From positions 1-32,567 of the forward strand of contig QCSN01000021.1 in the NCBI GenBank assembly GCA_003211515.1: a DNA stretch of 32,567 nt, given 5' to 3'. Under the pieces are notes generated by a model. The model did not search any database. It was not told the origin of the DNA and worked only from the letters and a program-made list of their open reading frames with translations. Position 1 is the stretch's first letter, and the number at the start of each line of letters is the position of its first letter. This DNA is from Synechococcus sp. AG-670-F04. Lineage in GTDB: Bacteria > Cyanobacteriota > Cyanobacteriia > PCC-6307 > Cyanobiaceae. The position numbers were made by a program, and so were the translations under genes. Of the stretch, positions 2 to 18,310 are shown piece by piece.

Positions 2-571
2 ACCGAGGACCTCAGCTTAGTGCCCATCTCGGTGTACAACAAAACCAAGATGGTGGCGGAACGGGTGTTCCTTTCCTATGCCGATCAGATGCAAGTGCAC
101 TGCATCCGACCAGCCACCGTTTGCGGAGTGTCGCCACGGATGCGACTCGATGTGAGTGTCAACATGCTGACGTATCAGGGCCTCAAGAATGGCAAGATCA
201 CCGTCTTCGGGGGGGAACAAACGAGACCAAACATCCACATAAAAGATCTAGCGAATGTGTACAGACACTTCCTTGCGAATAGAGAGTTTAACTCAGGGTG
301 CTTCAATGCAGGCTTTGAAAATCTAAAAATAATAGATATTGCCGAAAAAGTGCAGGAAAAAACCAATGCCGAACTCATAGTAACTGAGAGCAATGACCCA
401 CGATCATATCGACAAGACTCAACCAAATTACTGGCAACAGGGTTTAAGCCAAAATACACTGTAGAGAATGCAATAGATGAAATAAAAGAAGCTTACTTAA
501 AAAAACAGCTCAACGATGGTGAAAATTGCTATACAGTCAAATGGATGAACAAATTGGGACTAAATGGATGA
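2..571 (+). CDS. NAD-dependent sugar epimerase/dehydratase (extended SDR), 5'-truncated by window edge
   Basis: This is the C-terminal part (about 189 residues) of an extended short-chain dehydrogenase acting on nucleotide sugars. The catalytic YxxxK motif is visible as YNKTK at nt 35-49, followed by the family-typical RPATVCG and RPNIHIKDLA segments and a C-terminal NAGFEN-type stretch. The N-terminal Rossmann half lies outside the window, so the true start cannot be seen. The 4-base ATGA overlap with the next gene (568-571) ties it to the downstream operon. The oddity is composition: lines 61-180 are 57% G+C, whereas line 301-360 is 32%, and the change falls inside this reading frame near a run of seven G (209-215). 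The reaction (epimerase or 4,6-dehydratase) cannot be decided from this fragment. Confidence 0.85.
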   Translation, partial: TEDLSLVPISVYNKTKMVAERVFLSYADQMQVHCIRPATVCGVSPRMRLDVSVNMLTYQGLKNGKITVFGGEQTRPNIHIKDLANVYRHFLANREFNSGCFNAGFENLKIIDIAEKVQEKTNAELIVTESNDPRSYRQDSTKLLATGFKPKYTVENAIDEIKEAYLKKQLNDGENCYTVKWMNKLGLNG

Positions 572-1569
572 AGATGAAAAAAGAGAGCGAAAAAGAAAAA
601 AAAGTAATTTACAAAACAATGAAGCGAATAAGAATGATTGAAGAAGCAATTGCCGAAAAGTATCCAGAGGGAAAAATGAGATGCCCAACGCATTTATCGA
701 TTGGCCAAGAATTGACACCAACCATAATTTCAATGCTGACCAGCAAAAGGGATAAAGCAGTAAGCACTCATCGGTGCCACGCTCACTACTTAGCAAAAGG
801 CGGATCTTTAAAAAGAATGATTGCTGAATTGCATGGAAAGACAAATGGTTGCTGCAAAGGCAAAGGAGGGTCAATGCATCTAATAGATATGAAGGTAGGG
901 TTTATGGGTAGCTCAGCAATTGTAGGAAATAGCATACCAGTTGGGACAGGGATTGCGTTAGCAGAAAAGATTCGAAAAACGAACAATATTAGCATTGTTT
1001 ACTTGGGTGATGCAGCAACCGAGGAAGGCGTGTTTTACGAATCAATTAACTTTGCAGCACTAAAGAAATTAGATATATTGTATGTTTGCGAGAATAATCT
1101 TTATTCAGTGTACACACCATTAAAAGAAAGGCAGCCACCAAATAGAAACATTGTAGAAACAGTCAAATCAATGGGAGTAGAATATACAAAAAATCTAACA
1201 GAGAGAAAGACCGAGGATTTGTACAAAGAGCTAAAGTTGGTCTTAGGTAAAATTAAAAAAAATGGAGGCCCTGGATTCGTTGAAGTTGAAACATACAGAT
1301 GGAGAGAACACTGCGGACCAAATTATGACAATCATATAGGGTATAGGAATGAAAGTGAATTCATGGAATACCAGAAAACTGATCCTTTAAATATGCTAGA
1401 ACAGATGTTAACCAAGGAAGTAGTTGAATTTGAAATATGGAAGGAAGAGTTGGAAAAGAGAATCAGTGATGAAATAAGTAGAGCATTTGAATATGCTGAA
1501 CAGTCGCCATGGCCAGAAGAAACAGAAGGGATAAAAGGCATTTATGCAGATAACGGGAGCTACAAATGA
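568..1569 (+). CDS. TPP-dependent dehydrogenase E1 component, alpha subunit (pyruvate/acetoin dehydrogenase-like)
   Basis: This is the alpha subunit of a 2-oxoacid or acetoin dehydrogenase type E1 enzyme, which decarboxylates a 2-oxoacid on thiamine diphosphate and passes on the acyl or aldehyde unit. The TPP/Mg motif runs from GDAATEEG (about residues 147-154) to CENN (about 174-177), and the GKGGSMH segment lies near residue 98. I start it at ATG 568 because that makes an ATGA overlap with the preceding stop and has GGGA 8 bases upstream; an ATG at 541 in the same frame is the alternative. The beta subunit follows with another ATGA overlap. No lipoyl E2 or E3 gene is in the window, so a normal dehydrogenase complex is not indicated. 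In sugar pathways such E1 pairs are proposed to transfer a two-carbon unit to a keto sugar (AviB1/AviB2 of avilamycin biosynthesis). That role here is inferred. Confidence 0.9.
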   Translation: MKMKKESEKEKKVIYKTMKRIRMIEEAIAEKYPEGKMRCPTHLSIGQELTPTIISMLTSKRDKAVSTHRCHAHYLAKGGSLKRMIAELHGKTNGCCKGKGGSMHLIDMKVGFMGSSAIVGNSIPVGTGIALAEKIRKTNNISIVYLGDAATEEGVFYESINFAALKKLDILYVCENNLYSVYTPLKERQPPNRNIVETVKSMGVEYTKNLTERKTEDLYKELKLVLGKIKKNGGPGFVEVETYRWREHCGPNYDNHIGYRNESEFMEYQKTDPLNMLEQMLTKEVVEFEIWKEELEKRISDEISRAFEYAEQSPWPEETEGIKGIYADNGSYK

Positions 1570-2609
1570 AATTTTGCGAATTAGTGCGTAAAGCCATCGA
1601 AGACGAAATGGACAAGGATGAAACAGTTATTTGCTACGGACTTGGCGTAACGGACCCTAAAGGTGTGTTTGGCACAACTAAAGATCTACATAAAAAATTT
1701 GGCAACAAAAGAGTTTTCGATATGCCCACATCAGAAAATGGAATGACGGGTATTGGAGTAGGTGCCGCGATAATGGGATTAAAGGTAATAATGACACACC
1801 AACGAGTGGACTTCTTTTTATTGGCAATGGACCAAGTTGTAAATAGTGCAGCAAAAATGCATTATATGTACGGCAACCAATTGAATTGTCCTATCGTAAT
1901 AAGATTAATTATTGGAAGAGGATGGGGCCAAGGTCCAACACACTCTCAAAGTTTACAAGCATGGTTTGCACACATCCCGGGCCTTAAAGTAGTAATGCCA
2001 ACATTTGCGGAAGATGCATACACGTTATTAAGAGAGGCAATCCAGGATCCAAACCCGGTTATTTATTTAGAGCACAGATGGCTACATGAAACAAATGAAA
2101 GTAGTGTAAAAGGAAATATAAGCATAGGGAAAGCCAGAATATGCAGAGAGGGAAAACATTGTACGATAGTAAGTAATTCATATCTTACACTGGAGTCAAT
2201 AAAGGCCGCGTCATACTTAAGCGAGAGACATGGAATTGAATGTGAAATTATAGATTTGGCAACGGTAAAGCCAATAGATGAAAAAACTATTTTGGAATCT
2301 GTGAAAAAAACGAGACGAATATGTGTGTTGGATACTGGATTTGAGATTTGCGGGCTAGCAAGTGAAATCATAAGCATGGTATGCATTAATAATGAAATCG
2401 AACTAATTGATAAACCAATCAAAGGAAGCATGAAAGATATACCAGAACCAACAAGCTATGGACTAACGAAAAATACATATTTGGATGCAGCTGACATATC
2501 CAGAAAGTTGTTGAAGATGTTTAAGGAAACTATAGTTGAGAATGAACTAATGAAGTTGAAGCCTACAAGGCATGATATTCCCGGAGACTCGTTTAAGGGG
2601 CCTTTCTAA
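1566..2609 (+). CDS. TPP-dependent dehydrogenase E1 component, beta subunit
   Basis: This 347-residue protein is the transketolase-like beta subunit that pairs with the preceding alpha subunit. It has the pyrimidine-binding domain with the FDMPTSENGMTGIG segment, where Glu57 is the expected cofactor-activating glutamate. It also has the conserved GRGWGQGPTHSQSLQAWF segment (about 117-134) with its active-site-region histidines, and a C-terminal transketolase domain from about residue 190. Start ATG 1566 overlaps the alpha stop by four bases, so a fixed subunit ratio by translational coupling is likely. The next gene abuts its stop. Alpha and beta lengths are normal for separate-subunit E1 enzymes. 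The substrate is unknown; pyruvate is the family default. Confidence 0.9.
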   Translation: MKFCELVRKAIEDEMDKDETVICYGLGVTDPKGVFGTTKDLHKKFGNKRVFDMPTSENGMTGIGVGAAIMGLKVIMTHQRVDFFLLAMDQVVNSAAKMHYMYGNQLNCPIVIRLIIGRGWGQGPTHSQSLQAWFAHIPGLKVVMPTFAEDAYTLLREAIQDPNPVIYLEHRWLHETNESSVKGNISIGKARICREGKHCTIVSNSYLTLESIKAASYLSERHGIECEIIDLATVKPIDEKTILESVKKTRRICVLDTGFEICGLASEIISMVCINNEIELIDKPIKGSMKDIPEPTSYGLTKNTYLDAADISRKLLKMFKETIVENELMKLKPTRHDIPGDSFKGPF

Positions 2610-3413
2610 ATGGAAAATACGTTAATCATAGGAATAAGCAGTGGTATAGGCTCGGCTATAGCTGAAAGACTTTCAGAAGTTGGGCATAAAGTCAGTGGCA
2701 CAACAAGAAAGGGAGATAGATCCTCAGTTGAAAAAGAAGGCCAAAGAAACATATATTATCTAGACATTAGCAAAAAAAAGAATATCAAAAAGTTCCTTAA
2801 GGAGTACCAAAGCAGTGAAGAATGGGACAATTTAATAGTATGCCCTGGAAAGTTGGAACCGATAGTTAAGTTTGAATCTTGCGACATACAAGAATGGTCA
2901 GAGAGCTTTGAGATTAACTTTACAAACCAAATAATTCTATTGCATGGTCTAATAAAGGCAAGAAGTAAAGAAAAAGGAAGGGTGATTTTTTTTGCTGGAG
3001 GAGGAACTAACTCAGCAACACCAAGCTTCAGTGCCTATACAACAGCAAAGATCGCATTAATAAAAATCATTGAACTGTTAGATGATGAATCAGAAAATAT
3101 GACATATACAATTTTAGGCCCGGGTTGGGTTAAAACAAAAATTCATGAGCAAAGCATGGATCCAAAGAATAAAGCACTTGATTGCTATAAGGAGACAAAA
3201 AGGAGAATGGAAGAGAATGACTTTGGCGATATGGGCCGTGTGGTAGAATCCATAATGTGGATATTAAGTGAAGAAAAAAGTGTAGTTGGTGGAAGAAATT
3301 TTAGTACTGTGCATGACAAATGGGGGACTGAAGAGTTGAGAGAAATGTTGCTAAAAGACGAGAATGCTTATAAACTAAGAAGATATGCAAACTCAAGAAA
3401 GTGCGTACGATGA
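2610..3413 (+). CDS. Short-chain dehydrogenase/reductase (classical SDR)
   Basis: This 267-residue protein is an NAD(P)-dependent oxidoreductase. The nucleotide-binding GISSGIG is at residues 8-14 and the catalytic YTTAK at 143-147. The PGWVKTKI segment after the active site is also family-typical. The segment where the catalytic serine would be expected reads AGGGTNSATP, so the serine position is uncertain. ATG 2610 directly follows the E1-beta stop (TAA|ATG), and the stop overlaps the next start. Placed after a two-carbon transferase pair, it could reduce a new keto group on a sugar or its branch; this is inferred from context only. A C-terminal tail of about 40 residues extends beyond the usual core. 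Confidence 0.85.
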   Translation: MENTLIIGISSGIGSAIAERLSEVGHKVSGTTRKGDRSSVEKEGQRNIYYLDISKKKNIKKFLKEYQSSEEWDNLIVCPGKLEPIVKFESCDIQEWSESFEINFTNQIILLHGLIKARSKEKGRVIFFAGGGTNSATPSFSAYTTAKIALIKIIELLDDESENMTYTILGPGWVKTKIHEQSMDPKNKALDCYKETKRRMEENDFGDMGRVVESIMWILSEEKSVVGGRNFSTVHDKWGTEELREMLLKDENAYKLRRYANSRKCVR

Positions 3414-4276
3414 TCAAGGCTGAAAGAACACTAGATTTTGTGCTTAGAATCATAAATCATGTGACTAGCGGGCACAGTAGAGAAAATGATATATATAAAT
3501 ATATGGATGACATTCTTAAACCGGCAGTCAATGAATTATATGGCAAAACAACCGAGTGCAAAGCACACATGGATGGTATAGGAGAAATAAAAATGACATA
3601 TTTTGATATGGGTAATATAAATTCCACTCACTTATTTGGACTAGACGAATTAATAATTTTTTGTTTATATAAACAAAACACACTTACTTACAATAAAGTA
3701 GCAGATCTTGGGGCAAATATAGGGCTACATTCGATAGTCCTAGCAAAACTTGGGTTTGAAGTATCAGCGTATGAACCAGACATCGTGCACCTAGAAAGAC
3801 TAAGACTAAATTTAAATGAAAACAATGTACGGGACAGGGTAAAAGTATATCCCTGTGCAGTATCAACAACTAAGGAGACAAAAGAGTTCGTAAGAGTTAA
3901 GGGCAATACAACGAGTAGCCATCTGAAGGGAGCCAAAGATACGGCATACGGGAATTTGGAAAGTTTAAAGGTAGAGACTGTAGAATTCGAATCTATATTG
4001 AGGGGGAATGACCTTTTAAAAATTGATGTAGAAGGTCACGAAAGTGAAATAATATGCTCTTCAAAACTAAAAGACTGGGAAAACTGTGATGCAATATTAG
4101 AAGTTGGCAGCGAGAAAAATTCATACGAGATATATGAAAAGTTCAAGAACAGCAAGATTAATATGTTTTCACAGATGACAAACTGGAGGAAAGTTGAGAC
4201 AATGGATCAGATGCCAAAATCGTATAAAGATGGGTCAGTATTTATCACAATAAAGGAGAAAATGAAATGGAAATAA
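3410..4276 (+). CDS. FkbM-family SAM-dependent methyltransferase
   Basis: This is a class I SAM methyltransferase of the FkbM type (288 residues), a family that O-methylates sugars and polyketide hydroxyls. Motif I reads VADLGANIGLHS (about residue 99). An acidic AYEPD strand end follows, then the diagnostic LLKIDVEGHE (about 202-211). I choose ATG 3410, giving an ATGA overlap with the SDR stop; a GTG nine bases upstream is also in frame. The gene ends inside the next gene (10-base overlap). It most likely methylates a hydroxyl of the sugar made by this operon; the acceptor is not identifiable. Confidence 0.88.
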   Translation: MIKAERTLDFVLRIINHVTSGHSRENDIYKYMDDILKPAVNELYGKTTECKAHMDGIGEIKMTYFDMGNINSTHLFGLDELIIFCLYKQNTLTYNKVADLGANIGLHSIVLAKLGFEVSAYEPDIVHLERLRLNLNENNVRDRVKVYPCAVSTTKETKEFVRVKGNTTSSHLKGAKDTAYGNLESLKVETVEFESILRGNDLLKIDVEGHESEIICSSKLKDWENCDAILEVGSEKNSYEIYEKFKNSKINMFSQMTNWRKVETMDQMPKSYKDGSVFITIKEKMKWK

Positions 4277-6027
4277 AAGTCAAAGTATCAAGCATAGTAA
4301 GCAAGTTTATAAGAGAAAAGAACATAACACATACATTTAGCATCTCGGGTGGTGCTTCATTACATCTAATACATTCAATCGAAGAAGTAGAAGGTTTGAC
4401 GAACATATGCTGCCATCACGAGCAGGGATGTGCGATGGCAGCGGATGGATATGCAAGAGTTACGGGTAGAACAGGGCTGGCGATTGCCACAAGCGGCCCA
4501 GGAGCAACTAATCTAATAACAGGGATTTGCTGCAGCTATTACGATTCGGTTCCCATGATGGCGATAACGGGACAAGTAAGTAGGTTCCGTATGATTGGCA
4601 AAAGTAAAGTAAGACAAATAGGATTTCAAGAAACACCAATTGTCGAACTATGTAAGTCCATAACAAAATATGCCGTAAGAGTGACAAAAGCAGAAAATAT
4701 TCTTTACGAACTTGAGAAGGCCTATCAAATAGCTAATGCAGGAAGGAAAGGGCCGGTACTAGTCGACATACCAGATGATGTACAGAGAGAATATATTTTG
4801 GCATCTAAATGTAAAATATACAAAAATAAAATTCAAACAGCGAGGAAACACGAAGTGAGTGGCCTAGAAAGCAGATTAGATGCAATAAATAAATTATTAA
4901 GGGAGAGTGAAAGGCCAGTAATAATAGCGGGGTGGGGTGTACATCTTGCACAAGCAGAAAAAATGGTAAGAAGAGTAATTGAACAGCTGAATATACCTGT
5001 AGCTTTAACATGGGGGGCTGCAGATTTAATAGAAACTGAAAATCAGTTGTATTTAGGGACATTCGGAACACACGGGCAACGCTGCGCAAATTTAGCTGTT
5101 CAAAATGCAGATTTGATTTTATGTATGGGAGCACGACTAGACACAAAAGCAACGGGAACGCCGATAGCAACTTTTGCACCCAAGGCGAAAAAGATAGTAA
5201 TAGATATAGATAAAGAAGAACTTAAAAAATTTGATGAATTTGATCTGTACATTGAGGAAAAAATCTGTGAAGACTTAAATATCCTCAAGGACAAAGAAGA
5301 ACTCATACAAAAACTAAGTGGCAGTATGAATGGATACCTTAAATGGAAAAAACAAATAAGCGAATGGAGGACAAAGACAGAAACCTTTGACAGAGGAAAA
5401 AGAAATGAAATTAAGAGCCTGGTGAATCCATATCATTTCTTTGAAATAATTTCAGACGAACTAGAAGGTGAAACAAATATATTTCTTGATACAGGTTGTA
5501 CAATCGCATGGGCTATGCAATCTATAAAAATGAAATCAGGTATAAGGACATATCATGACTTCAACAATACAGCAATGGGGTGGGCGTTACCGGCTAGTAT
5601 TGGTGCAAAATTAGCTGATACAAGAAGAAACACAGTCTGTATAATGGGAGATGGATCACTCATGATGACAATGGAAGAATTAGCAATTATAAAGAGATTC
5701 AAAATTAACTTGAAAGTGATAGTAATGAATAATAGTGGTTATTCAATGATACAACAAACACAAGATCAGTGGCTTGACTCTAAATATATTGCCTCATCAT
5801 ATGAAGGAGGTATTGACTTTCCAAATCTCGAAAAAATAGCAGATGCGTTCGAGATGGATTACGAGGTAATCGACAGCAATAAGGATTTAGAACATAGGAT
5901 AAAGAATATAATCGACTTAAATGGTCCTGTTTTGTGTGATGTGAAAGTTGAAAGAGCATTTAGGGTAATACCACAGGTGAAGGCTGGATATCCAAATGAA
6001 AAAATGGAACCAGAATATGAGATATAG
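4267..6027 (+). CDS. Thiamine-diphosphate-binding protein of the acetolactate synthase family (IlvB-like)
   Basis: This 586-residue protein has the full three-domain architecture of acetohydroxyacid-synthase-type enzymes. It has the N-terminal pyrimidine domain with HHEQGCAMAADGYAR (Glu52 activates TPP), a central domain, and a C-terminal PP domain with GDGSLMM (about 461) to MNNSGYS (about 487). The start overlaps the FkbM gene and the stop lies six bases before the next gene, so it is an integral operon member rather than the housekeeping ilvB. Relatives in surface-sugar loci include YerE, which joins a two-carbon unit from pyruvate to a 4-keto sugar to make yersiniose. A similar carboligation is inferred here. 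No regulatory IlvH subunit accompanies it, which argues against plain acetolactate synthesis. Confidence 0.88.
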   Translation: MEIKVKVSSIVSKFIREKNITHTFSISGGASLHLIHSIEEVEGLTNICCHHEQGCAMAADGYARVTGRTGLAIATSGPGATNLITGICCSYYDSVPMMAITGQVSRFRMIGKSKVRQIGFQETPIVELCKSITKYAVRVTKAENILYELEKAYQIANAGRKGPVLVDIPDDVQREYILASKCKIYKNKIQTARKHEVSGLESRLDAINKLLRESERPVIIAGWGVHLAQAEKMVRRVIEQLNIPVALTWGAADLIETENQLYLGTFGTHGQRCANLAVQNADLILCMGARLDTKATGTPIATFAPKAKKIVIDIDKEELKKFDEFDLYIEEKICEDLNILKDKEELIQKLSGSMNGYLKWKKQISEWRTKTETFDRGKRNEIKSLVNPYHFFEIISDELEGETNIFLDTGCTIAWAMQSIKMKSGIRTYHDFNNTAMGWALPASIGAKLADTRRNTVCIMGDGSLMMTMEELAIIKRFKINLKVIVMNNSGYSMIQQTQDQWLDSKYIASSYEGGIDFPNLEKIADAFEMDYEVIDSNKDLEHRIKNIIDLNGPVLCDVKVERAFRVIPQVKAGYPNEKMEPEYEI

Positions 6028-6033
6028 TAAAAA

Positions 6034-6786
6034 ATGAACATTTTAGACTTCATTAAACTCACAGAGTATGCTGAGATTTACCGTAGCGGCTACAAGAGGG
6101 CCAAACCATTCCCTTCAGTTGTAATAGATAATTTTTTTGATGATGATGTATTTGAACATGTGCATAACTCATTCCCATTGCTAGGAAGTAGCATATGGAA
6201 AACACCAAGTAATAGACATACTAAGGAGAAGAGTGTAGTCAAGAGGGGGAATACAGGGTTAAAAGAAAACAATCTATCAGAAAAGAGTAAGAATATTATA
6301 TACCAACTAAACTCGGCCACATTTATAAATTTTCTTGAAAATATTACTGGAATAGAAGGGCTATGCCCCGATCCGTACATCTATGAAGGTGGTTATCACC
6401 TAAGTAAAGGCCAGGGAAAGTTAGATATACATGCTGATTACTCACATCACGACAAATTGGGACTAGAACGAAGGGTAAATGTATTAATATATTTAAATAA
6501 AGATTGGGATGAAAAATTTGGTGGAAGCCTTGGTCTGTATGATAAAAAGATTAATTTAATAAAGAAAATAAGTCCAATAGCGAACAGAATGGTAATATTT
6601 TCTACAGATATAGACTCATATCATGGATTCCCAGATGAGATGAACATTAGCAAGGAATATGAGAACCTACACCAGGGTAGAAAATCAATTGCTATGTATT
6701 ACTACACCATTCCAACTAAAAGGAAAAAACACAAAATAATTTTTGCCAACGATCCTTCATTTACATTTGAGCCAACAATAGAATGA
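6034..6786 (+). CDS. 2-oxoglutarate/Fe(II)-dependent oxygenase (prolyl-4-hydroxylase-like fold)
   Basis: This 250-residue protein carries the facial triad of the 2OG-Fe(II) superfamily: His133 and Asp135 in DIHADYSHH, and His197 in SYHGFPD. A downstream basic residue in the RKSIAMYYYT strand (about 216) would bind 2-oxoglutarate. The RRVNVLIYLN and GGSLGLYD segments between them are typical of the 2OG-FeII_Oxy_3 group. It follows the IlvB-like gene by six bases and overlaps the next by four. It is likely to hydroxylate or otherwise oxidise a sugar intermediate or an attached group; the substrate is unknown. Confidence 0.85.
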   Translation: MNILDFIKLTEYAEIYRSGYKRAKPFPSVVIDNFFDDDVFEHVHNSFPLLGSSIWKTPSNRHTKEKSVVKRGNTGLKENNLSEKSKNIIYQLNSATFINFLENITGIEGLCPDPYIYEGGYHLSKGQGKLDIHADYSHHDKLGLERRVNVLIYLNKDWDEKFGGSLGLYDKKINLIKKISPIANRMVIFSTDIDSYHGFPDEMNISKEYENLHQGRKSIAMYYYTIPTKRKKHKIIFANDPSFTFEPTIE

Positions 6787-7460
6787 CTTATGACTTTGAC
6801 AAAGATGGATTAACCATCGTAAACCTTTTCACAAAACCAGAAATAGAACAAATAAAGAAGGATTTATCGAAGTATATATGCTCAAAACTAGGAATGAATA
6901 AAGTAGAGGAAATCGAGAAATATCATAAGTGGTACGATAAAGCTATTGATGGAAGAAAGACCGCTTTGTCAGCAAAAAACAGACACTTCAAAAATGGACG
7001 CTGGCAAGAAATCGATATTGTTGAAAGAGTAAGAACAGAAGTTATAAACAATAGGGTGTGTAAGAATATAGAGGTATGGGATGAAGGCTATGGGCAAATA
7101 GCGTACAGATTAATAAGACCAGGATTCAATGACGGATATCCTGCATCACGGAAAAGTTGGGGTCCAGGAGGAAAGCTAATCTCAGCAACGATACCAATCA
7201 TTGGATTTACTGAATATGAGAGTCAATCATTCATAATCGGGTCACATAGAAAAAACTACAGAAGCTATCTTCCGAGTGATCCTAAATTCTGCTCAGAAGA
7301 GCGCAGATTGGTAAATCCAGAAATTTATAAATATACGCAAGTGAAACCAAATGTAGGTGATGTGATAATATTTCACTGGGATACAATTCACACGGAACAG
7401 ATAATAGGTAGAGACACAACAAGATTAGCTTTGGAGGTGAGATACAAGCTAAATGAGTGA
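6783..7460 (+). CDS. Phytanoyl-CoA dioxygenase (PhyH)-like protein with no obvious HxD iron ligands
   Basis: This 225-residue protein resembles small PhyH-type oxygenases. It has a GSHRKNY segment (about 155-161) like the usual PGSH element. A C-terminal VGDVIIFHWDTIH segment supplies a distal-type histidine, and an arginine follows in TTRLALEVRY. The proximal HxD pair normally found before the GSH element is not evident: that stretch reads SWGPGGKLISATIPIIGF with no histidine. Either the metal ligands are displaced or the protein has lost iron chemistry. ATG 6783 forms an ATGA overlap with the upstream oxygenase, and its stop lies inside the next gene. It may act together with the intact neighbouring oxygenase. 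Confidence 0.65.
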   Translation: MTYDFDKDGLTIVNLFTKPEIEQIKKDLSKYICSKLGMNKVEEIEKYHKWYDKAIDGRKTALSAKNRHFKNGRWQEIDIVERVRTEVINNRVCKNIEVWDEGYGQIAYRLIRPGFNDGYPASRKSWGPGGKLISATIPIIGFTEYESQSFIIGSHRKNYRSYLPSDPKFCSEERRLVNPEIYKYTQVKPNVGDVIIFHWDTIHTEQIIGRDTTRLALEVRYKLNE

Positions 7461-8415
7461 GACAAATGTATGGCTTGGCACCCTCCACTACGGAGAAAAA
7501 TTAAATAAGAATGAGGTGCTATACCTACTAACAAACCTACCAACTGGAAAACAATACATATTAGATGTTGCAGACATCTATAGTGGAGGGAAAAGTATTC
7601 AGATACTCACTGGGTTAATAAGTAAAGTAAAAAGCAACATACGCCTAAGTTACAAAATAGGATTAATTGGATATAAAGAAGAAGAAATATTTAAAGTGAA
7701 AGAAAGATGTTGGAGTGAAGGTGAATTTGCCGAAGAAATCGAGAAGATAATAAAGAAAGTAACGATAGATAGAATGCATTCAATTCAACTTCATGCCATT
7801 CCAGCAAAAGATAGTTCTTTGATAAATGTAATAAAAGATATTAAAGAAATAATGCAAAGGTACAAGCAAATAGAAGTAGGCATAGCAAATATAAATAGCG
7901 AAGAATTGGATAAACTAACAAGACGCTATGGCTTAAGATTTAATTTTGTACAATTACATGGCAACATAATAGAAAGAAGACTTGTCAGAAGTTTTTCAAA
8001 CAAAAAATACAAGAAAGACAATATTTACTTAATAGCTAACAGGGCATTATGTAGAGGATTGATAAACAAAGAGGATCACATAATTGGAAACGAAAGGAGC
8101 AGATTCAATTCAAGTAAAAGAATACAGCAGTCATATGATGAACGGAAAAAAGAACTTATGGGCAGAATAATACAAGTTTGCGAAGCAGAAAGAATTAAAT
8201 TAATAGAAATAGCGTATGGATATTTAATAGATCAAGAATTATCGATAATACCAATTATTGGTGGTAGTAATTATGAACAAATAAAAGAGTCAATAGAAGT
8301 AATAGAAGGTCTACAAGGTAATAGGATGGGGAGAGTTAGAAAAATAATAAGAGAACTAGAATCTGAGATGGTGTACAATTCCTATGATTATCCTAATACG
8401 GCATTCGAAAAATAG
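7453..8415 (+). CDS. Aldo/keto reductase family protein
   Basis: This 320-residue protein shows the catalytic tetrad of the aldo/keto reductases: Asp and Tyr in VADIYSGGKS (about 40-49), Lys in SYKIGLIG (about 68), and His in IQLHAIP (about 114). A C-terminal segment IIPIIGGSNYEQIKES (about 271) matches the NADP-binding end of the barrel (usual form IPIPG.....). It is otherwise divergent and rich in Lys and Ile. It overlaps the upstream PhyH-like gene by eight bases and abuts the next SDR. It probably reduces a keto or aldehyde group on the sugar made by the operon. A second, less divergent aldo/keto reductase is at 22108-23016. Confidence 0.8.
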   Translation: MSETNVWLGTLHYGEKLNKNEVLYLLTNLPTGKQYILDVADIYSGGKSIQILTGLISKVKSNIRLSYKIGLIGYKEEEIFKVKERCWSEGEFAEEIEKIIKKVTIDRMHSIQLHAIPAKDSSLINVIKDIKEIMQRYKQIEVGIANINSEELDKLTRRYGLRFNFVQLHGNIIERRLVRSFSNKKYKKDNIYLIANRALCRGLINKEDHIIGNERSRFNSSKRIQQSYDERKKELMGRIIQVCEAERIKLIEIAYGYLIDQELSIIPIIGGSNYEQIKESIEVIEGLQGNRMGRVRKIIRELESEMVYNSYDYPNTAFEK

Positions 8416-9150
8416 ATGAGCAAGATTGTATTCGGTGGAAGCTCAGGGATTGGGAAAAGGATAATTGAAAAGTTGCGGATTGATAGTACAGTGGTAAATA
8501 TTGACTTAAAGGAAAATGGTAGCAAGAGACTAATTGAATTAATAGGTGACTTAAGGGACGACAATTTTGTAAAAGAGGTAATAAGTAAAATCTCGAGTGA
8601 AACGAATATTGAATCAATAGTTTGGAGTATAAGATATAGAAACAAAAATAAGGGAGGAAGAGTAGCGATGATAAAGGAATGTATGGAATTAGAGATATAC
8701 TCATTCATAAAAATAATTGACGGGCTAGAAAAGGAACTAATAAGGGATGGAACATCTATAGTAATAATTTCGTCAATAGCGTCTGAATTGATATCATCAC
8801 AAGAAATGTCCTATAATATTGTCAAGGCAGCTCAAGAAGCTATGGCAAGAAAGTTTGGAGTGATATATGGTGAGAAGAGTGATGTGAGATTTAATTGTAT
8901 ATGTCCTGGAATAGTGGGTATGGAAGAAAGAATTCAAAATGATGAGACTAAAACAGAAGTAGTATTAAAGCTGCAAAGGTGTAGTGTTCCTCGGGAAAAG
9001 ATTGTAAGTGCTGAAGAGATAGCAGAGTTGGTAAGCTTTTTGACAAAAAAAGAATCCTCTTCGATAAATGGAGCAAGAATAGTGTGTGATGGGGGCGAAA
9101 GCATAATGGACCAATACTACGTCGCTGCAAGAATGCAGGAATTGCTATGA
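8416..9150 (+). CDS. Short-chain dehydrogenase/reductase (classical SDR)
   Basis: This 244-residue SDR has GGSSGIG (7-13) for NAD(P) binding, a serine in IVIISSIAS (about 119-120) and YNIVK with Tyr133 and Lys137. It also has the NCICPGIVG segment and a C-terminal INGARIVCDGG typical of the family. It abuts the upstream aldo/keto reductase (TAG|ATG), and its stop overlaps the following DegT-like start by four bases. It is the second classical SDR of the operon and shares only the general fold with the one at 2610-3413. The substrate is unknown; a keto-sugar reductase is the contextual guess. Confidence 0.87.
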   Translation: MSKIVFGGSSGIGKRIIEKLRIDSTVVNIDLKENGSKRLIELIGDLRDDNFVKEVISKISSETNIESIVWSIRYRNKNKGGRVAMIKECMELEIYSFIKIIDGLEKELIRDGTSIVIISSIASELISSQEMSYNIVKAAQEAMARKFGVIYGEKSDVRFNCICPGIVGMEERIQNDETKTEVVLKLQRCSVPREKIVSAEEIAELVSFLTKKESSSINGARIVCDGGESIMDQYYVAARMQELL

Positions 9151-10217
9151 ATAATAAAAAAGGTTGGTTTCACACACAGATTACGGAAAAAGCAAAAGAA
9201 TACTCAATCATGGCAATTCAAGAAGATAACTACACGAATGGTATGTACACTAATGAGCTTGAGAAGGAATTAGGAAGTATTTTAGGCTTACCATTTTGCG
9301 TGTATGTGAACAGTGGTACAGCGGCGCTAGCAATGAGTTTCATTGCTAGTGGTGCCTCAAAGCATAGTCAAGTGGCTGTACCAGGGATTGGATGGGTTGC
9401 GACGCCTCAGGCGGCACAAGTGACAGGAGCGAGTATAGATATACTGGATGTACGAGCTGATATACCTATTCTAAAAATAGGAAGCTATTACAAGGAATAT
9501 GATTATATAGTGGCCGTAAACTATAATGGTAGACAGGTAGATATAGAAAAACTAAGGAGGGCAAACAAAAAAAGTATAATTATTGAGGACTCATGTAAAA
9601 GCTTGTTCTCACTGTCATACGGAGGTGAGACCTTCTCCGGATCTGAAGGCAACTATGGATGTTATTCACTAGGAATGATATCAGCACTGCCGGGCATATA
9701 TGGTGGAATAGTCACAGCAAGAAATCCAAGAGAAGAGGAAAAGTTGAGAACAATAAAATGGCATGGAACAAGTTATGAAAAGAACAAAGAAATCTACAAG
9801 TATAGGTCATTCAATTTTAAAGCGAGTAATGTTCATGCTGCTATGGCATTAGGAATGCTAGAAGATTATGAAGAGAGAATAGAAAGACTGAGAGTGATAT
9901 ATAATATGTATGAAAAGGGTTTAGAAGGGTTAGAGAATTCAAAGCTGACAGAAGTAGCTGTTGATAGGGGGGAAATACCTTTACTGATAGACATAGAAAC
10001 TAAGGACAGGGAGACAATGATAAACCATCTAAAAGCGCAGGATATTGAGACCTGCAATTATCATGAATCACTAGCAAAATGTCCTGATGTAAACACCACA
10101 TTAGCTACCACAAATAGCAATTATTTTGGTGAGCATGTATTTCACCCGCCTTGCGGAGCTGATCAAGAATTAAGCACAATAGAAAAGGCTATAAGATTGA
10201 TTCGAGAAAAAGGCTAG
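9147..10217 (+). CDS. DegT/DnrJ/EryC1/StrS-fold protein lacking the PLP-binding lysine
   Basis: This 356-residue protein follows the sugar aminotransferase fold. NSGTAAL (about 55-61) is the phosphate-binding turn, IIEDSC contains Asp148 that should contact the pyridine nitrogen, and GIVTARN follows the active-site loop. The loop that normally carries the Schiff-base lysine reads GCYSLGMISALPG (171-183), with serine (Ser179) at the expected lysine position. It is not the histidine found in the ColD-type 3-dehydratases either. Asp148 is followed by Lys151 where Gln, His or Ser is usual. The enzyme is therefore probably not an ordinary aminotransferase. It could be a non-catalytic partner, use external PLP or PMP, or have new chemistry. 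It is the last gene of the operon and ends 26 bases before a convergent gene. Confidence 0.82.
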   Translation: MNNKKGWFHTQITEKAKEYSIMAIQEDNYTNGMYTNELEKELGSILGLPFCVYVNSGTAALAMSFIASGASKHSQVAVPGIGWVATPQAAQVTGASIDILDVRADIPILKIGSYYKEYDYIVAVNYNGRQVDIEKLRRANKKSIIIEDSCKSLFSLSYGGETFSGSEGNYGCYSLGMISALPGIYGGIVTARNPREEEKLRTIKWHGTSYEKNKEIYKYRSFNFKASNVHAAMALGMLEDYEERIERLRVIYNMYEKGLEGLENSKLTEVAVDRGEIPLLIDIETKDRETMINHLKAQDIETCNYHESLAKCPDVNTTLATTNSNYFGEHVFHPPCGADQELSTIEKAIRLIREKG

Positions 10218-10243: not shown

Positions 10244-11890
10244 CTAGTAGAAGCCATTGGAAGAAGGATAACGAGAAAGCTTTACTTTATAATGGTCATA
10301 ATAATGACTATTGTTTAGACAAGATAGGTCAGGAAAGCGGAGTAGATTATTGTAGAAATAAGAAAAAGCATCAACAAGTTCTAGGGTCGAAAGATTGCTG
10401 TATGTAAAGCCGATACTAGAGAGAGATTCATGATCATGAGGGATGGAGTCTCTTAGAAAAGTGTAATCAAAGTTATGATTAGATTGATTTTTATAATTCC
10501 AATGCTTAAAAAGATGGGCACAAAGCGGATGATATAAAAAGGAATTGAATGGTAAGGAATCAAATATTAATGAAGGTTTATTGAAAAGGAAGGCTCCTGA
10601 ATAGCAAGAACCCGATGGACCAGAAAAACAACAAATAGCGCGCGACAAAAGGAATAAATAATCAGAATGAGATATCTCAGAAAAAGGCAATAATTCAGTT
10701 ATAAAGGAAGAATCATGAACAAACTTAGTTGCTTTAAATGAAATATCGCATAGAATGATAATGGGAATATTAGTAATGCGAGAAAACTTATCCAATGCAT
10801 TAAGAACAGACATCTCGTCAGAGTTACGGTGTAGGTTAAAATTAGTAGACTCTTGTTTGAAATGATTAGTACGCCAAGAAGCTACAATAAAATTGGGATA
10901 TGAAGAAATGAAATCACAAATTAGGGGGGACACCTCTGTCGTTTCAGGAGAAGACAAAACGATAGATGAGGAAACACTGGAAAGTTTTGAGGTATTCAAA
11001 AGGGTATCAATGGAATATTCAGGATGAGAATAAGGTTGAGGAATGAAACCAAATGAAGAGAGTTGTTCGCGATAATTAGGTATAGAGAGCGAGATCGGCC
11101 AAAGCCGATAATTAATTGGTGAGAAAGTGTTAGTGTCAATAAGGTGTATCGGGAAATTTGCTTTTAATTGCAACTTAAGCAAGGACGGGTTAGCAACAGA
11201 CCTAGGATCGACAATAAGTCGATATTGTGTATTAAATACTTTATTGTATGCGTGAAAAAATCGTGGATAGACGACTTGGTGACCAAAGGCATAAAGAAGA
11301 TTAACAGTATCAATAGTGTTGTATAAAGCATACCTTTCTGCCCTCGAAATGATAAGACTTAAGCGATGTATACAGCCATGTCGAGAAAGAGTATAAAGAG
11401 ATCGATAGATTGCATTTGCAATGAACGGAGTGTAGAAGGGTGCCAATGACGCAATATCAGACAATACACGCTTTGAAAACAAAATTAGACTATGATTAAA
11501 GCCAACTGGATTAGATAAAATGCGAATTATTGAGTAAAGGAATGAAATATCAAGATGGTCGATATTGCAGGCTTTAATATTTGAGATAAAACGGAGATAA
11601 CAAGGGTGAGAAATATTAGGGTGAGAAACATTAATACAACTACAAATAAAGGCATCAAATTGATTTGATGAAGACGAAAACAACTCATCAAAAAGAAGGT
11701 GCCAGTCTATGCGAGAACAAAGACTACAATAGGAGTTATAATAAGGAGATACAGAAGATAAGAGTTGGACAATCGGGGGGGCGATGTAATCAATGCACGT
11801 AATGAGAACTTGAATATGGTGCGAGCGAATTAATTGTTCAGAATGAAATCTTAATTCTGTTGGAGAGAGCCGATTTTGACGATATTGCAC
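10244..11890 (-). CDS. Putative glycosyltransferase resembling the TIGR04372 family
   Basis: This 548-residue protein resembles TIGR04372, a family of putative glycosyltransferases in exopolysaccharide loci. The signs are NFNLHRNSDEMSVLNALDKF, an IIILCD strand, and FLLSRAICCFSGPSGS followed by GAFLFNKPSLIFDSLPFN, the sugar-nucleotide-binding-like end. Family membership is judged by eye. The start is a GTG at 11890 with no Shine-Dalgarno sequence; in the same frame an ATG at 11965 opens only nine codons before a TAA, so the N-terminus is uncertain. Composition is odd: very rich in Ser, Leu, Ile and Phe and poor in Gly, Glu and Lys, because its coding strand is pyrimidine-rich. It is convergent with the operon ending at 10217 and divergent from 12261. 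Confidence 0.7.
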   Translation of the reverse strand: MQYRQNRLSPTELRFHSEQLIRSHHIQVLITCIDYIAPPIVQLLSSVSPYYNSYCSLCSRIDWHLLFDELFSSSSNQFDAFICSCINVSHPNISHPCYLRFISNIKACNIDHLDISFLYSIIRILSNPVGFNHSLILFSKRVLSDIASLAPFYTPFIANAIYRSLYTLSRHGCIHRLSLIISRAERYALYNTIDTVNLLYAFGHQVVYPRFFHAYNKVFNTQYRLIVDPRSVANPSLLKLQLKANFPIHLIDTNTFSPINYRLWPISLSIPNYREQLSSFGFIPQPYSHPEYSIDTLLNTSKLSSVSSSIVLSSPETTEVSPLICDFISSYPNFIVASWRTNHFKQESTNFNLHRNSDEMSVLNALDKFSRITNIPIIILCDISFKATKFVHDSSFITELLPFSEISHSDYLFLLSRAICCFSGPSGSCYSGAFLFNKPSLIFDSLPFNSFLYHPLCAHLFKHWNYKNQSNHNFDYTFLRDSIPHDHESLSSIGFTYSNLSTLELVDAFSYFYNNLLRFPDLSCLNNSHYYDHYKVKLSRYPSSNGFY

Positions 11891-13031: not shown

Positions 13032-14062
13032 TGCTTAAACAAAACACATGCAGCAATTGGAGTTACGCCAAAAAGATACTAATAGAAGATGCAGATAAAT
13101 ATAATTTATGCATTAATAAGCCTGTTCATCTCAAAGCAATTAAAGATATATTCACTAGCACAAAAAAAGTAAATAACGGATTCATGAGGGAATTATGGCT
13201 TGCCACGAATAAACAATCGTCAATTCTCTGGAAAGCTATAAATCAAAAAATACAATTACAAAGTAACTATGTAGGAATTGAACATAAATTTGGATATTGG
13301 GAAAGTGAAGAAGATGCCGCAATCAAATCATTAAACGAGAATGGCATGTATATTTTTAAGAAAAAGATTGACATTCAAATAGTTAAGAAATTATTGGAGG
13401 ATATAAGTCAAGAAACTGTGAGACCAAGTAACAGCATGCAACAAATAATTGATGTTAACGAAAAGGCAGGAAGTATTATCAATACACAACAATCAGAATA
13501 TATACGATGGCACTTCGATAATCATATATTTGATAGAATCAAGAATCTTTCAAATTTAGCAAAAGAGCCTAGCCTAGTTAAGATTGCAAAAAATTATTTA
13601 GGGACAGACCCTATATGTACAAATAAGCAAGCATGGATAAGCAAAGGTAAAAGAATAAACGATATAAATGAGTGTTCTAGTGCTGCACAGATGTATCATT
13701 TTGATTATGATAGCTTCAACTTCCTAAAAGTAATGATTTATTTCTCTGATGTATGCTTAGAATCAGGTCCACACACATATATGAGTACTACACATAAACC
13801 CTTCACCACGGACAAAATTAGAGCTAGAATAGCACCATATGGCAGATATAATGATTATGTTATTTATGAGCTATTTGATAAGTCTAACGAGGTACAGATA
13901 TGTGGCAAAGCTGGAACGGTTATATTAGTTGACACGTCTGGATTTCATAAGGGACAAATATTAAGAGAAGGGCGGACTCGTATAATGGCTCAGATAGAGT
14001 TTGTGGATTGCGGTTTACATTTTGGCCATAAAGAGGATGTAACCAAGCAAAAAAGAGAATGA
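13028..14062 (+). CDS. Phytanoyl-CoA dioxygenase (PhyH)-type 2OG/Fe(II) oxygenase
   Basis: This 344-residue protein has a complete iron site: MYHFDYD gives His224 and Asp226, SGFHKGQ gives His307, and Arg in REGRTRIMAQ (about 316-318) should hold 2-oxoglutarate. The ESGPH motif sits about 20 residues after HxD. I start at ATG 13028 (ATGA overlap with the methyltransferase) rather than an in-frame ATG at 12992. The same arrangement (HFDxD, FLKV, GPH, then H(K/R)G and Q(I/L)xFVD) occurs in the - strand protein at 15567-16475, so the two are paralogues. It probably hydroxylates a sugar or lipid part of the surface glycan. It is lysine-rich (about 36 Lys, 24 Ser), the reverse of its - strand paralogue. 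Confidence 0.85.
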   Translation: MMLKQNTCSNWSYAKKILIEDADKYNLCINKPVHLKAIKDIFTSTKKVNNGFMRELWLATNKQSSILWKAINQKIQLQSNYVGIEHKFGYWESEEDAAIKSLNENGMYIFKKKIDIQIVKKLLEDISQETVRPSNSMQQIIDVNEKAGSIINTQQSEYIRWHFDNHIFDRIKNLSNLAKEPSLVKIAKNYLGTDPICTNKQAWISKGKRINDINECSSAAQMYHFDYDSFNFLKVMIYFSDVCLESGPHTYMSTTHKPFTTDKIRARIAPYGRYNDYVIYELFDKSNEVQICGKAGTVILVDTSGFHKGQILREGRTRIMAQIEFVDCGLHFGHKEDVTKQKRE

Positions 14063-15558
14063 GGGAATTAAGACTTCTTTTACATTGGCATCCCCAAGGT
14101 TCCTACTTGGCCAGGTCGATATTTCATTCTTTTAAATTTGCAAAAAAGGCTGAAAGAATTCGGGTTGGTATAGTTGTTGGAAGCAACTTTATGGCTCAGA
14201 CAAATCAAGAATCTATTGCCTATGTAAAAGAACTTACAAAAAGAGATACTAACAACAAGTTAGTCAGCTTTGAATTAATAGTAATAGATTACCCACTATG
14301 GAATTTTAGTCTATATGCATCGAAGAAAGAAGAAGAAAACACAAAGATGTATAATGGAAAATATAAAAAGTTGTTTGCTAATTCTGTAAAAGATTCACTA
14401 GGAAGAGGGCTTGAAGTATGTTTTAACAATAAGGACTACATGACATCAAATGAGGTGAGTGAGAAACTTGAAAAAGAAAGAATGGGATATGCCACAATGT
14501 TGATTGAGAAATACAGGCAAATCATAAAGGATTTTAATCCAGACATAGCGGCTATTTCACATGGAACGTATGATCATTATGTAGCAGTATACATTGCAGC
14601 AGGGGAGGAATCAGTACCAGTTTTAGTAGTGAATGGTGGCTGCAATATGGCATATGTTTGTGAATCACAAAATAAAGTGATCACGGATCCATGTATCGCA
14701 AATGCATTTTCAGATATAGTAAAGCTATATAAAGAAGAAAAGAATATCATGGAAACGGTATTGCCTCCAGATCTAAAGCGATTAATAACTAAGGCAAGTA
14801 ACCGTTATCTACCTAACAGCTCATCTGGTATTATTGCAAAATCAAAAGTATTTGAAAAAGGGACGCATACAAGTAAACCACTAGCAATGCTGCCAGTGTT
14901 TGCAGAATTGAATCATCACAACTGTCTTCAGGAGCTTGAATTTAAGTCAAGATATGAATGGCTTGAATGGTGTTTCAAGATGGCGCATGAATCCAATAAA
15001 CAATTACTTTTATATGCACACCCACAGACAAATGCTTATGGCCAAAATTCATTAACAAATGAACTAGTTAATAATGCAGCGATAAAGTATCCTGCAGAAT
15101 TTAAGCTTCTGGCCAAACTTGGTGATTTGGAATATGAAAGTTTAAAAGATGCGTTAGTACCTATAACCATGGCTAGCTCTGTGAGCTTAGAAATGAACAT
15201 GCTAGGGAAGGTATCATGTGTAAGTAATTACTCAACTTCTTCACCTTTAAAATGTAATGTACAATTTCGAAAAAACGATTGCTTTAAAGATCTAGAAGGC
15301 AGATTTATGCTACAGAAAGACATTGAGCTTGATCACCATATTAGTGATGCGGCAAATCAAGCTTTAAAATTTAATAGTTACAACAAATTTGGATCACAGG
15401 ACTATCACATAAGAAAAGCCTTTGAAAAGTTAATATGGTTTGGCACGTATTCAAAGGGATCAGTAGATAATTTTATAAGCCTATTAGAAGAATATATTTA
15501 TCAAATGAAGGTGATAGAACTTCCGAGTGAAAGATTTGTACAGTTAATTCCATATTAA
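14059..15558 (+). CDS. KpsS/LipB-like capsule polysaccharide transferase (putative)
   Basis: This 499-residue protein shows no membrane segment and has a two-half organisation typical of GT-B-like capsule proteins. An early HWHPQGSYLARS segment, a HGTYDHY motif about residue 172 and a YAHPQTN motif about 321 are followed by ITMASSVSLEMNMLGKVS, which matches the end-domain pattern of KpsS/LipB proteins (serine-rich turn, Glu, then LGK). KpsS-type enzymes add Kdo-like acids to the lipid anchor of capsules; a nonulosonate substrate is plausible here given the neighbouring NeuB genes. The start overlaps the oxygenase stop (ATGA at 14059). It converges on the - strand oxygenase eight bases downstream. 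The family call is by motif only. Confidence 0.6.
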   Translation: MRELRLLLHWHPQGSYLARSIFHSFKFAKKAERIRVGIVVGSNFMAQTNQESIAYVKELTKRDTNNKLVSFELIVIDYPLWNFSLYASKKEEENTKMYNGKYKKLFANSVKDSLGRGLEVCFNNKDYMTSNEVSEKLEKERMGYATMLIEKYRQIIKDFNPDIAAISHGTYDHYVAVYIAAGEESVPVLVVNGGCNMAYVCESQNKVITDPCIANAFSDIVKLYKEEKNIMETVLPPDLKRLITKASNRYLPNSSSGIIAKSKVFEKGTHTSKPLAMLPVFAELNHHNCLQELEFKSRYEWLEWCFKMAHESNKQLLLYAHPQTNAYGQNSLTNELVNNAAIKYPAEFKLLAKLGDLEYESLKDALVPITMASSVSLEMNMLGKVSCVSNYSTSSPLKCNVQFRKNDCFKDLEGRFMLQKDIELDHHISDAANQALKFNSYNKFGSQDYHIRKAFEKLIWFGTYSKGSVDNFISLLEEYIYQMKVIELPSERFVQLIPY

Positions 15559-18210: not shown

Positions 18211-18216
18211 ATATGA

Positions 18217-18221
18217 CTCCC
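18217..18221 (-). promoter_or_regulatory. Shine-Dalgarno sequence that fixes the NeuB start
   Basis: On the - strand GGGAG stands six bases before ATG 18210. It lies inside the alternative reading that would begin at 18231, which has no such site upstream. Most genes here lack a clear ribosome binding site, so this one is informative. Confidence 0.6.
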
Positions 18222-18310
18222 ATGTGCTCATTGATGTGTATTACCTAATATACAATAAGATCATTGATGAACGGTTGCGAAAGTGGAATCCTCAAGAAAA
18301 TCGCGAAATC

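Follow-up and report, generated by a model that had tools for sequence, protein, structure and literature searches.

Gene content of the operon

The window analyzed here is the whole of contig QCSN01000021.1 (C21) in the Synechococcus sp. AG-670-F04 assembly GCA_003211515.1 (G000; 2.25 Mb in 130 contigs, 68% complete), with a length of 32,567 nucleotides. Its first part, positions 2-10217, holds eleven genes on the same strand in the order Epi (cut), E1-alpha, E1-beta, SDR1, FkbM, IlvB, 2-oxoglutarate (2OG) oxygenase, oxygenase-like open reading frame (ORF), aldo/keto reductase (AKR), SDR2, and DegT, SDR standing for short-chain dehydrogenase. Junctions between them range from -13 to +6 bases, and several are ATGA overlaps. 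An earlier note on this DNA had described an E1-alpha/E1-beta pair and a full-length IlvB-like thiamine diphosphate (ThDP) enzyme in one coupled operon (568-6027), which is borne out by the Pfam matches and the gene junctions (Table 1); the operon is tightly packed and continues to 10217. The contig start cuts the upstream SDR/epimerase gene, Epi, and the operon context 5' of base 1 lies beyond the contig. The remaining window contains largely nonulosonate and glycan genes. The window has a G+C content of 36-37%, whereas stretches taken from four further contigs of the assembly have 51-62%, and it looks like a low-GC island.

Table 1. Genes of the operon, with the sequence matches on which each assignment is based
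Gene	Product	Positions	Strand	Basis
Epi	C-terminal part of NAD-dependent epimerase/dehydratase-type SDR, cassette marker gene	2..571	+	Pfam Epimerase 3.9e-9
E1-alpha	E1-alpha-type ThDP subunit	568..1569	+	Pfam E1_dh 2e-50; ATGA overlap with Epi
E1-beta	E1-beta-type ThDP subunit, 347 aa	1566..2609	+	Transket_pyr 1.3e-32, Transketolase_C 8e-23
SDR1	Short-chain dehydrogenase, candidate branch ketoreductase	2610..3413	+	adh_short 1.3e-20
FkbM	FkbM-family methyltransferase	3401..4276	+	Methyltransf_21 8.2e-12; TIGR01444 81.9 bits (cutoff 37.7)
IlvB	IlvB-like ThDP carboligase	4267..6027	+	TPP_enzyme_N/M/C, all three domains, E 8e-29 to 6e-38
2OG oxygenase	2OG-Fe(II) oxygenase-like	6034..6786	+	2OG-FeII_Oxy_3 4.5e-15
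ORF	Second oxygenase-like ORF (weak)	6783..7460	+	TIGR04324 20.5 bits, below cutoff 150; no Pfam match
AKR	Aldo/keto reductase, candidate branch ketoreductase	7453..8415	+	Aldo_ket_red 5.2e-21; L039 counterpart 33-34%
SDR2	Short-chain dehydrogenase	8416..9150	+	adh_short_C2 2.3e-24; L039 counterpart 41-42%
DegT	DegT-family protein without the usual pyridoxal phosphate (PLP) lysine	9147..10217	+	DegT_DnrJ_EryC1 5.5e-39

Epi and the genes around it recur in other genomes as a cassette (genomes and loci are denoted below by G and L numbers). Four full-length Epi relatives share 65-77% identity with the Epi of L040, and the window fragment shares 75%. The weak oxygenase-like ORF is 47% identical to an ORF of the equivalent operon in L039.

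The E1 pair looks distinct from housekeeping pyruvate dehydrogenase

The window E1-alpha is 55-56% identical to that of L037 and 29% identical to the host's own E1-alpha, which is encoded on contig C10. A tree of 48 rows, with seven of 15 housekeeping loci used and four duplicates dropped, and carrying only Shimodaira-Hasegawa-like approximate likelihood ratio test (SH-aLRT) support, separates the cassette E1-alphas from the seven housekeeping E1-alphas and from human PDHA1. An HCG motif is present in 28/28 cassette rows, the window counted, and in 0/20 other rows. In the window it forms part of the loop REHCGPN, at the position where human PDHA1 has GHS, in the phosphorylation loop of the human protein. 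The ThDP motif of the window E1-alpha reads GDA instead of GDG, and L134 has the same variant.

The E1-beta tree comprised 45 rows, those from the PDB being aligned stretches only, with tails outside them. All 28 cassette E1-betas end in GPF, mostly within HD[IV]PG..FKGPF, and the window tail is ...FKGPF. This ending is also found in two further E1s (L051 and L146) and is missing from the nine rows of L042-L050. In the PDB alignment, the window E1-beta keeps the Glu and His positions of the E1-beta of pyruvate dehydrogenase (PDH), presumably its catalytic residues. By tree, HCG motif, and GPF tail, the window E1 falls outside the housekeeping PDH E1s, in line with the carboligase role that the earlier note had assigned to it. 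As in alpha-KADH2 enzymes of the AviB1/B2 type, it is a pair without E2/E3 in a sugar cluster, with ThDP residues intact apart from the GDA of E1-alpha.

The earlier note had also described the operon as lacking E2/E3 partners. This holds for the window, in which neither was found, and for 90 glycan loci including the window, in which tblastn (E 1e-4) with the host E2 and E. coli AceF and Lpd as queries gave 0 matches; a few of these loci overlap, both control loci were matched, and the side 5' of the contig start is cut off. An E2/E3 pair hidden in the cluster was rejected as an explanation, none having come to light in this search. The host assembly has one E2 match, on contig C28, and two lipoyl/biotinyl-domain matches, both on contigs other than the window. 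Because the host's E1-alpha (C10) and E2 (C28) themselves lie on separate contigs, a missing E2 beside the window E1 says little alone, and it is the motifs and trees that carry the argument against PDH.

Three observations concern E1 enzymes more generally. The HD[IV]PG..FKGPF tail is a possible signature for stand-alone E1 carboligases. Loci L042-L050 hold a second Prochlorococcus island E1-alpha/beta family, found in glycan regions of the host's family, with a GHVDWR.D motif and no GPF tail; it lies near the cassette rows in the E1-alpha tree, without clear resolution, and PseB-like genes of ~630-655 aa occur nearby in seven of these nine loci. Natural E1-alpha/E1-beta fusions of 685-700 aa, with a transketolase-like layout, are present in L039, L040, L062, and L101.

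The IlvB-like enzyme falls outside acetolactate synthase by tree

A tree of 31 rows (29 different) was built for the IlvB-like enzyme. The window protein falls, with 99/99 support, in a 25-row clade together with glycan-linked enzymes and the structures 5ahk, which we take to be YerE of P. protegens, and 8rph, which we take to be JanthE. The ThDP motif of 8rph is CDG, in agreement with the description of JanthE in the review literature. Acetolactate synthases (acetohydroxyacid synthases, AHAS), including the host's own copy on contig C43, are excluded from this clade, in agreement with the earlier note's reading of the gene as a sugar-branching enzyme. Within it, the window IlvB clusters first with three cassette members from cyanobacteria (100/99), then with five from proteobacteria (91/86); the cassette enzymes make up their own subclade.

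At the AHAS arginine (DDR.TG), presumably an acceptor-binding residue, K or H stands in the 13 rows that make up the window's clade (one protein being counted twice), with K in the window itself. These 13 rows have T at the AHAS Trp position, and Glu and the GDG ThDP motif are kept. The Arg is present in the host, Arabidopsis, and E. coli IlvB/IlvI enzymes, and the host AHAS has both R and W; E. coli IlvB also lacks the Trp. These residues tell against AHAS, and the predicted placement on the YerE side is that of the tree.

One explanation for both enzymes is that the island carries ordinary second copies of the genes for PDH E1 and acetolactate synthase, or decaying ones. Their best NCBIfam names are indeed PDH E1 and acetolactate synthase, and pairwise identity does not separate IlvB from AHAS. 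However, all listed E1 and IlvB scores are under the curated cutoffs (e.g. 262.5 vs 393.85 for E1 and 402.3 vs 538.35 for IlvB), the trees and motifs set the window enzymes apart from the housekeeping copies, the reading frames are intact, and conservation of the operon extends across phyla. Pairwise identity alone is not decisive for IlvB; on the trees and motifs we rejected this explanation, which we regard as highly improbable. Judged from their sequences, the two ThDP enzymes appear to be glycan-associated carboligases and not PDH E1 and AHAS.

The cassette has two carboligase positions with alternative occupants

A cassette-type E1-alpha of at least 47% identity occurs in six of 299 genomes from the host's order (the host G000, G233, G159, G032, G004, and G289), three of which (G233, G159, and G289) belong to the same family group as the host. 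An IlvB of at least 50% identity occurs in three of the 299 (G000, G159, and G004), all among these six. A wider sample came from an Epi alignment scan of the genome collection, which gave 292 confirmed relatives, of which the best 80 were kept; dropping L073, which shares its contig with L072, left 79 loci. Where these overlap with loci from whole genomes (L066/L037, L077/L038, and L098/L041), only the L057-L136 copies were counted. According to their record labels (many are metagenome bins), the 79 loci come from cyanobacteria, alpha-, beta-, and gammaproteobacteria, Planctomycetes, Verrucomicrobia, Chloroflexi, Desulfuromonadales, and one record labelled euryarchaeote. The gene order E1-alpha, E1-beta, SDR1, FkbM, IlvB, which the earlier note had proposed to look for elsewhere, is present in L040 (with a fused E1), L114, L123, and L132. 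In L061, L106, L112, L133, and L134, the operon is rearranged or has no detected FkbM. The IlvB group directly follows E1-beta in L040, L106, L112, L114, and L123.

The first carboligase position (slot 1), as assessed by tblastn in the 79 loci, is occupied by E1 in 26 and by a split transketolase, type A (TK-A), in 41; 12 loci have neither and 0 have both. TK-A was called at 40% identity or more to two TK-A references, and the transketolase label comes from Pfam matches in five chains and from similarity in the others; a regular-expression search for the ThDP motif of transketolases gave 0 matches, the pattern probably having been made for another family. By motif and tree the E1 of L100 is PDH-like, which leaves 25 loci with a cassette-type E1. 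Slot-1 genes lie downstream of Epi in 25/26 E1 and 39/41 TK-A loci, 1 to 10 kb away. The two kinds of locus also differ in their other genes: an NT5C-like ORF is found in 38/41 TK-A vs 0/26 E1 loci and an APH-like kinase in 34/41 vs 1/26, and SDR1 was matched in 8/26 E1 loci, all eight with IlvB, and in 0/41 TK-A loci. As a separate observation, L092 (SAR116) has three ThDP systems, namely a 637-aa transketolase-like ORF, E1-alpha/beta, and a split transketolase of a second type (TK-B); the 637-aa protein, encoded upstream, falls under the TK-A threshold at 34-35%.

A second carboligase (slot 2) is present within 10 kb in 12/26 E1 loci (12/25 cassette-type), 0/41 TK-A loci, and 0/12 loci with neither (Fisher p 1.6e-6 for the association with E1, uncorrected for kinship). 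These twelve are ten IlvB enzymes (29-51% identity) and two TK-B (47-49%); the IlvB of L059 (29%) and L108 (32%) are outside the window's IlvB clade, on the JanthE side. In L077 an IlvB-FkbM-SDR1 group lies ~37 kb off on the same contig, which brings the E1 loci with a second carboligase to 13. Several contigs end early, at the shortest 1.5 kb past Epi for TK-A loci and 4.6 kb for E1 loci. When 50 of the genomes behind the 79 loci were searched whole, IlvB of at least 39% was found in 9/26 E1 and 0/24 TK-A genomes; two TK-A genomes (G326 and G341) have an IlvB at 35-36%. The system is thus wider than E1 plus IlvB, with split transketolases as alternatives at both positions, often alongside the GmhA/HldE-like genes described below.

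Carboligase modules have been exchanged between close relatives

In a tree of 82 Epi rows, including the window, L039, and L040 (these three chosen for having the operon), the TK-A label changes at least seven times on supported branches. Closely related Pseudoalteromonas strains provide natural swaps. EB27 (L106) and 3D05 (L120) share one 15.97-kb collinear block with 88.6% DNA identity that ends inside E1-beta. Over the first 150 columns of their alignment the two E1-beta proteins agree in 149, and over columns 201-350 in 67. Past E1-beta, L106 continues with SDR1-IlvB-FkbM and L120 with a different SDR plus a split transketolase. P. rhizosphaerae RA15 (L110) is 94% identical to L106 in Epi and GmhA and 71% in the next SDR and methyltransferase, after which it has TK-A, and H105 (L112) is 90% identical to L106 throughout. 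The G032 operon (L039) combines Epi, a fused E1, a TK-B split transketolase, SDR1, and FkbM with counterparts of an oxygenase-like gene (2OGb) and of AKR, SDR2, and DegT in the window's order. Repeated exchange of carboligase modules is supported by these comparisons.

A heptose-type gene set precedes Epi in relatives

In L039 and L040, Epi and E1 are preceded by genes encoding HAD phosphatase-, FAD oxidoreductase-, HddC-, GmhA-, methyltransferase-, Zn-dependent alcohol dehydrogenase-, HldE-, and SDR-like proteins, and part of this set is also present in L037, L038, and L041. GmhA-like genes occur in 63/79 loci, HldE-like in 39/79, and HddC-like in 33/79; in the HldE-like protein the order of the two domains is swapped. 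The comparison also took in two annotated plasmids of Azospirillum: on one, an E1 of this type neighbors PfkB and SIS-domain genes as well as two DegT genes, and the other has a more distant E1, with no PfkB or SIS genes listed. The cassette would make a heptose-type nucleotide sugar, and for the window, in which base 1 cuts Epi, this would be an extrapolation from the relatives. The window itself shows the Epi-E1 adjacency of this heptose-cassette branching system, any GmhA/HldE/HddC region lying beyond the contig end; an Epi search of the host assembly returned the window fragment and distant SDRs only.

Proposed pathway and its alternatives

We lean modestly towards the reading that the operon encodes a single shared pathway in which both ThDP carboligases help to make an unusual branched sugar for the cell surface. 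Computed results underlie it: gene content, tree placement, conserved ThDP residues, AHAS arginine loss, operon recurrence, and module exchange at both positions. The stand-alone E1-alpha/E1-beta would decarboxylate pyruvate and, as we infer by analogy with AviB1/B2, Pau11/12, and KbDH, transfer the acetyl group to a ketone of a nucleotide sugar or sugar chain instead of to a lipoyl-E2, giving a tertiary alcohol with an acetyl (two-carbon) branch. Its acceptor probably comes from the cassette seen in relatives, in which a GmhA-like isomerase, an HldE-like kinase/nucleotidyltransferase, an HddC-like nucleotidyltransferase, and two SDRs would produce a heptose-type nucleotide sugar. The YerE-like IlvB would then make another C-C bond within this pathway, at the branch ketone, lengthening the branch, or at a second ketone of the ring. 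The branch ketones may be reduced by SDR1 and/or AKR, FkbM would methylate, and the 2OG enzymes would tailor the product.

An alternative role for E1 is that it makes a small building block or ketose precursor before GmhA, in a chain extension of the 1-deoxyxylulose-5-phosphate synthase (DXS) or transketolase kind, leaving the branching to IlvB only. Its alternation with a split transketolase in the cassette favors this role, as does the action of GmhA homologues on ketose phosphates. However, E1 and TK-A lie downstream of Epi at nearly all loci, near methyltransferase and reductase genes, and a pyruvate-derived 1-deoxyketose would not be isomerizable by GmhA in the usual way. We consider this role improbable.

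Several observations weigh against two carboligases working in one shared, heptose-fed pathway. The heptose cassette is not seen in the window, whose contig starts inside Epi, and an HldE search of the host assembly (68% complete) gave no match. One cassette SDR is likened to 4,6-dehydratases by Pfam and NCBIfam, but a 67-row alignment shows TPE and YxxxR conserved in it where 4,6-dehydratases carry TDE and YxxxK; dehydration is therefore not assumed, and the standard 4,6-dehydratase pathway was not kept for the cassette. For the IlvB-like enzyme, identity is 32.1% to 5ahk, 28.7% to 8rph, 32.4% to Arabidopsis AHAS, and 28.4% to host AHAS, and the best PDB matches, 8rph and 5ahk, are barely ahead of plant AHAS (279, 273, and 272 bits). 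Because identities and PDB scores do not discriminate, its placement depends on the tree, in which YerE and JanthE are among several long branches flagged. 5ahk (YerE) itself, like L158 and others, keeps R at the AHAS arginine position, and arginine loss was accordingly dropped as a mark of YerE.

Other points concern the link between the two positions. Within 10 kb, 13/25 cassette-type E1 loci have no second carboligase (12 when L077 is counted), and the IlvB of the TK-A genome G326 falls at the base of the window's clade (89/84). G014 has an IlvB of 37-38% beside heptose genes in a genome without an E1-alpha match at 1e-40, and in G159 the IlvB-FkbM-SDR1 group is ~37 kb from E1; these arrangements indicate that IlvB can exist without E1. 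With kinship controlled, the link between slot 2 and E1 comes down to seven independent pairs, 4-6 for and 0 against (sign-test median p 0.06, 0.03-0.13). These numbers suggest, without proving it, that slot 2 depends on E1.

The G159 and G014 arrangements fit independent branching, in which the operon would serve two branched sugars: E1 would branch the heptose-derived sugar and SDR1-FkbM-IlvB another nucleotide sugar of the same polysaccharide, the operon being shared as the polysaccharide needs both. The IlvB group is movable (in G159 it sits beside other nucleotide-sugar genes), IlvB occurs without E1 in G014, about half of the E1 loci have no IlvB group, and YerE is described as leading by itself to yersiniose. 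Yet no IlvB is within reach in any of the 41 TK-A loci, the whole-genome search likewise found IlvB of at least 39% on the E1 side only, the IlvB group follows E1-beta directly in the five loci named above, and L106 and L120 have IlvB or TK-B past the same junction. We regard two separate branched sugars as rather unlikely.

The absence of slot 2 from TK-A loci fits extension of a first branch. It is possible, and we put it forward tentatively, that the shared pathway is a modular sugar extension, in which the heptose-type cassette feeds slot 1 (acetyl from E1 or hydroxyacetyl from a split transketolase) and the E1 product alone is extended by slot 2. Ordered, exchangeable modules would in this way grow a multi-carbon branch, diversified by recombination.

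Comparison with known branching enzymes

E1-type pairs have precedents in sugar branching in AviB1/B2 and Pau11/12, for which acetyl transfer from pyruvate to a ketone is proposed, and the branch ketone of paulomycin (paulomycose) is reduced by the AKR Pau7 (PMC4753412, PMC4425429). For KbDH-alpha/beta, acetyl transfer from pyruvate to a ketone has been shown in vitro (PMC12247030). This review places YerE-like enzymes mainly in lipopolysaccharide (LPS) and alpha-KADH2 enzymes and transketolases mainly in antimicrobial natural products, treating them as separate groups. It also states that experiments have yet to provide evidence for transketolases accepting ketones, that the 13 ketone-linked split transketolases are all from streptomycetes, and that split transketolases are proposed for miharamycin and amipurimycin (PMC12247030).

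AviB1/B2, Pau11/12, and KbDH resemble the window in having an E1 pair in a sugar-modification cluster (Pau12 has 345 aa and the window E1-beta 347 aa). The tailoring set is also similar for the first two, with a Pau7-type AKR in paulomycin and a non-heme-iron enzyme in avilamycin. These systems, however, are described from actinobacterial antibiotic clusters with one carboligase per branch, whereas the window is a surface-glycan island with a YerE-like neighbor, and relatives carry heptose genes. YerE, JanthE, and ErwE are, like the window IlvB, full-length three-domain ThDP enzymes in glycan clusters, and 8rph and 5ahk are its best-scoring structures. The window enzyme differs from YerE and JanthE in its identity of 29-32%, no higher than that to AHAS, its E1 carboligase partner, and its own cassette subclade.

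The operon would work like a combination of alpha-KADH2 and YerE-like branching enzymes; the tree supports the YerE-like membership. The split transketolases proposed for miharamycin and amipurimycin resemble TK-A (replacing E1) and TK-B (replacing IlvB) of the relatives in being two-gene transketolases in a carboligase position. In contrast to them, those of the relatives come from cyanobacteria, proteobacteria, and other phyla, not streptomycetes, and there are none in the window. The nucleoside diphosphate (NDP)-heptose pathways (GmhA, HldE, and HddC) have homologues in many relatives' cassettes. The cassette differs from them in its swapped HldE-like domains and its dehydratase-like SDR without the usual Asp and Lys, and no heptose genes are visible in the window.

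In the literature searched, mostly at title/abstract level and without the main survey of Krug et al. 2024 or Steitz et al. 2022, there was no description of E1 and YerE-like enzymes in one pathway, of their exchange with split transketolases, or of the heptose context. The phrase "sporadic carbohydrate cluster", the name of a weak NCBIfam match, did not occur in the literature searched either. Across phyla, one surface-glycan cassette carries all three carboligase kinds in its two positions, and closely related Pseudoalteromonas strains show natural swaps. The recurrence and swapping of the carboligase pair suggest a modular way of building unusual branched sugars. If so, all three of the ThDP superfamilies with known ketone acceptance would serve as exchangeable modules on a surface sugar, module roles could be tested by comparing polysaccharides of existing strains, and the cassette would be a source of new tertiary-alcohol-forming biocatalysts. 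A further suggestion is that bacteria may vary their surface sugars through exchange of C-C bond-forming enzymes, not only of glycosyltransferases.

Other genes of the island

The DegT-family protein that ends the operon reads SLGMISAL at the site that is S[FLM]HPLKN in the 11 DegT rows of six loci used for comparison, the lysine in this family being the PLP-binding residue. The G032 DegT homologue likewise has no PLP-binding lysine, and the window protein may have a non-PLP or ColD-like activity. Elsewhere on the island, a CMP-sugar-type cytidylyltransferase (CTP_transf_3) is fused to a class-III aminotransferase at 19415-21508 (-). Four large ORFs have 0 Pfam matches, at 10244-11890 (-), 14059-15558 (+), 18338-19423 (+), and 25078-26667 (-). 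Two NeuB-type nonulosonate synthases are encoded on opposite strands, at 17149-18231 (-) and 28078-29085 (+).

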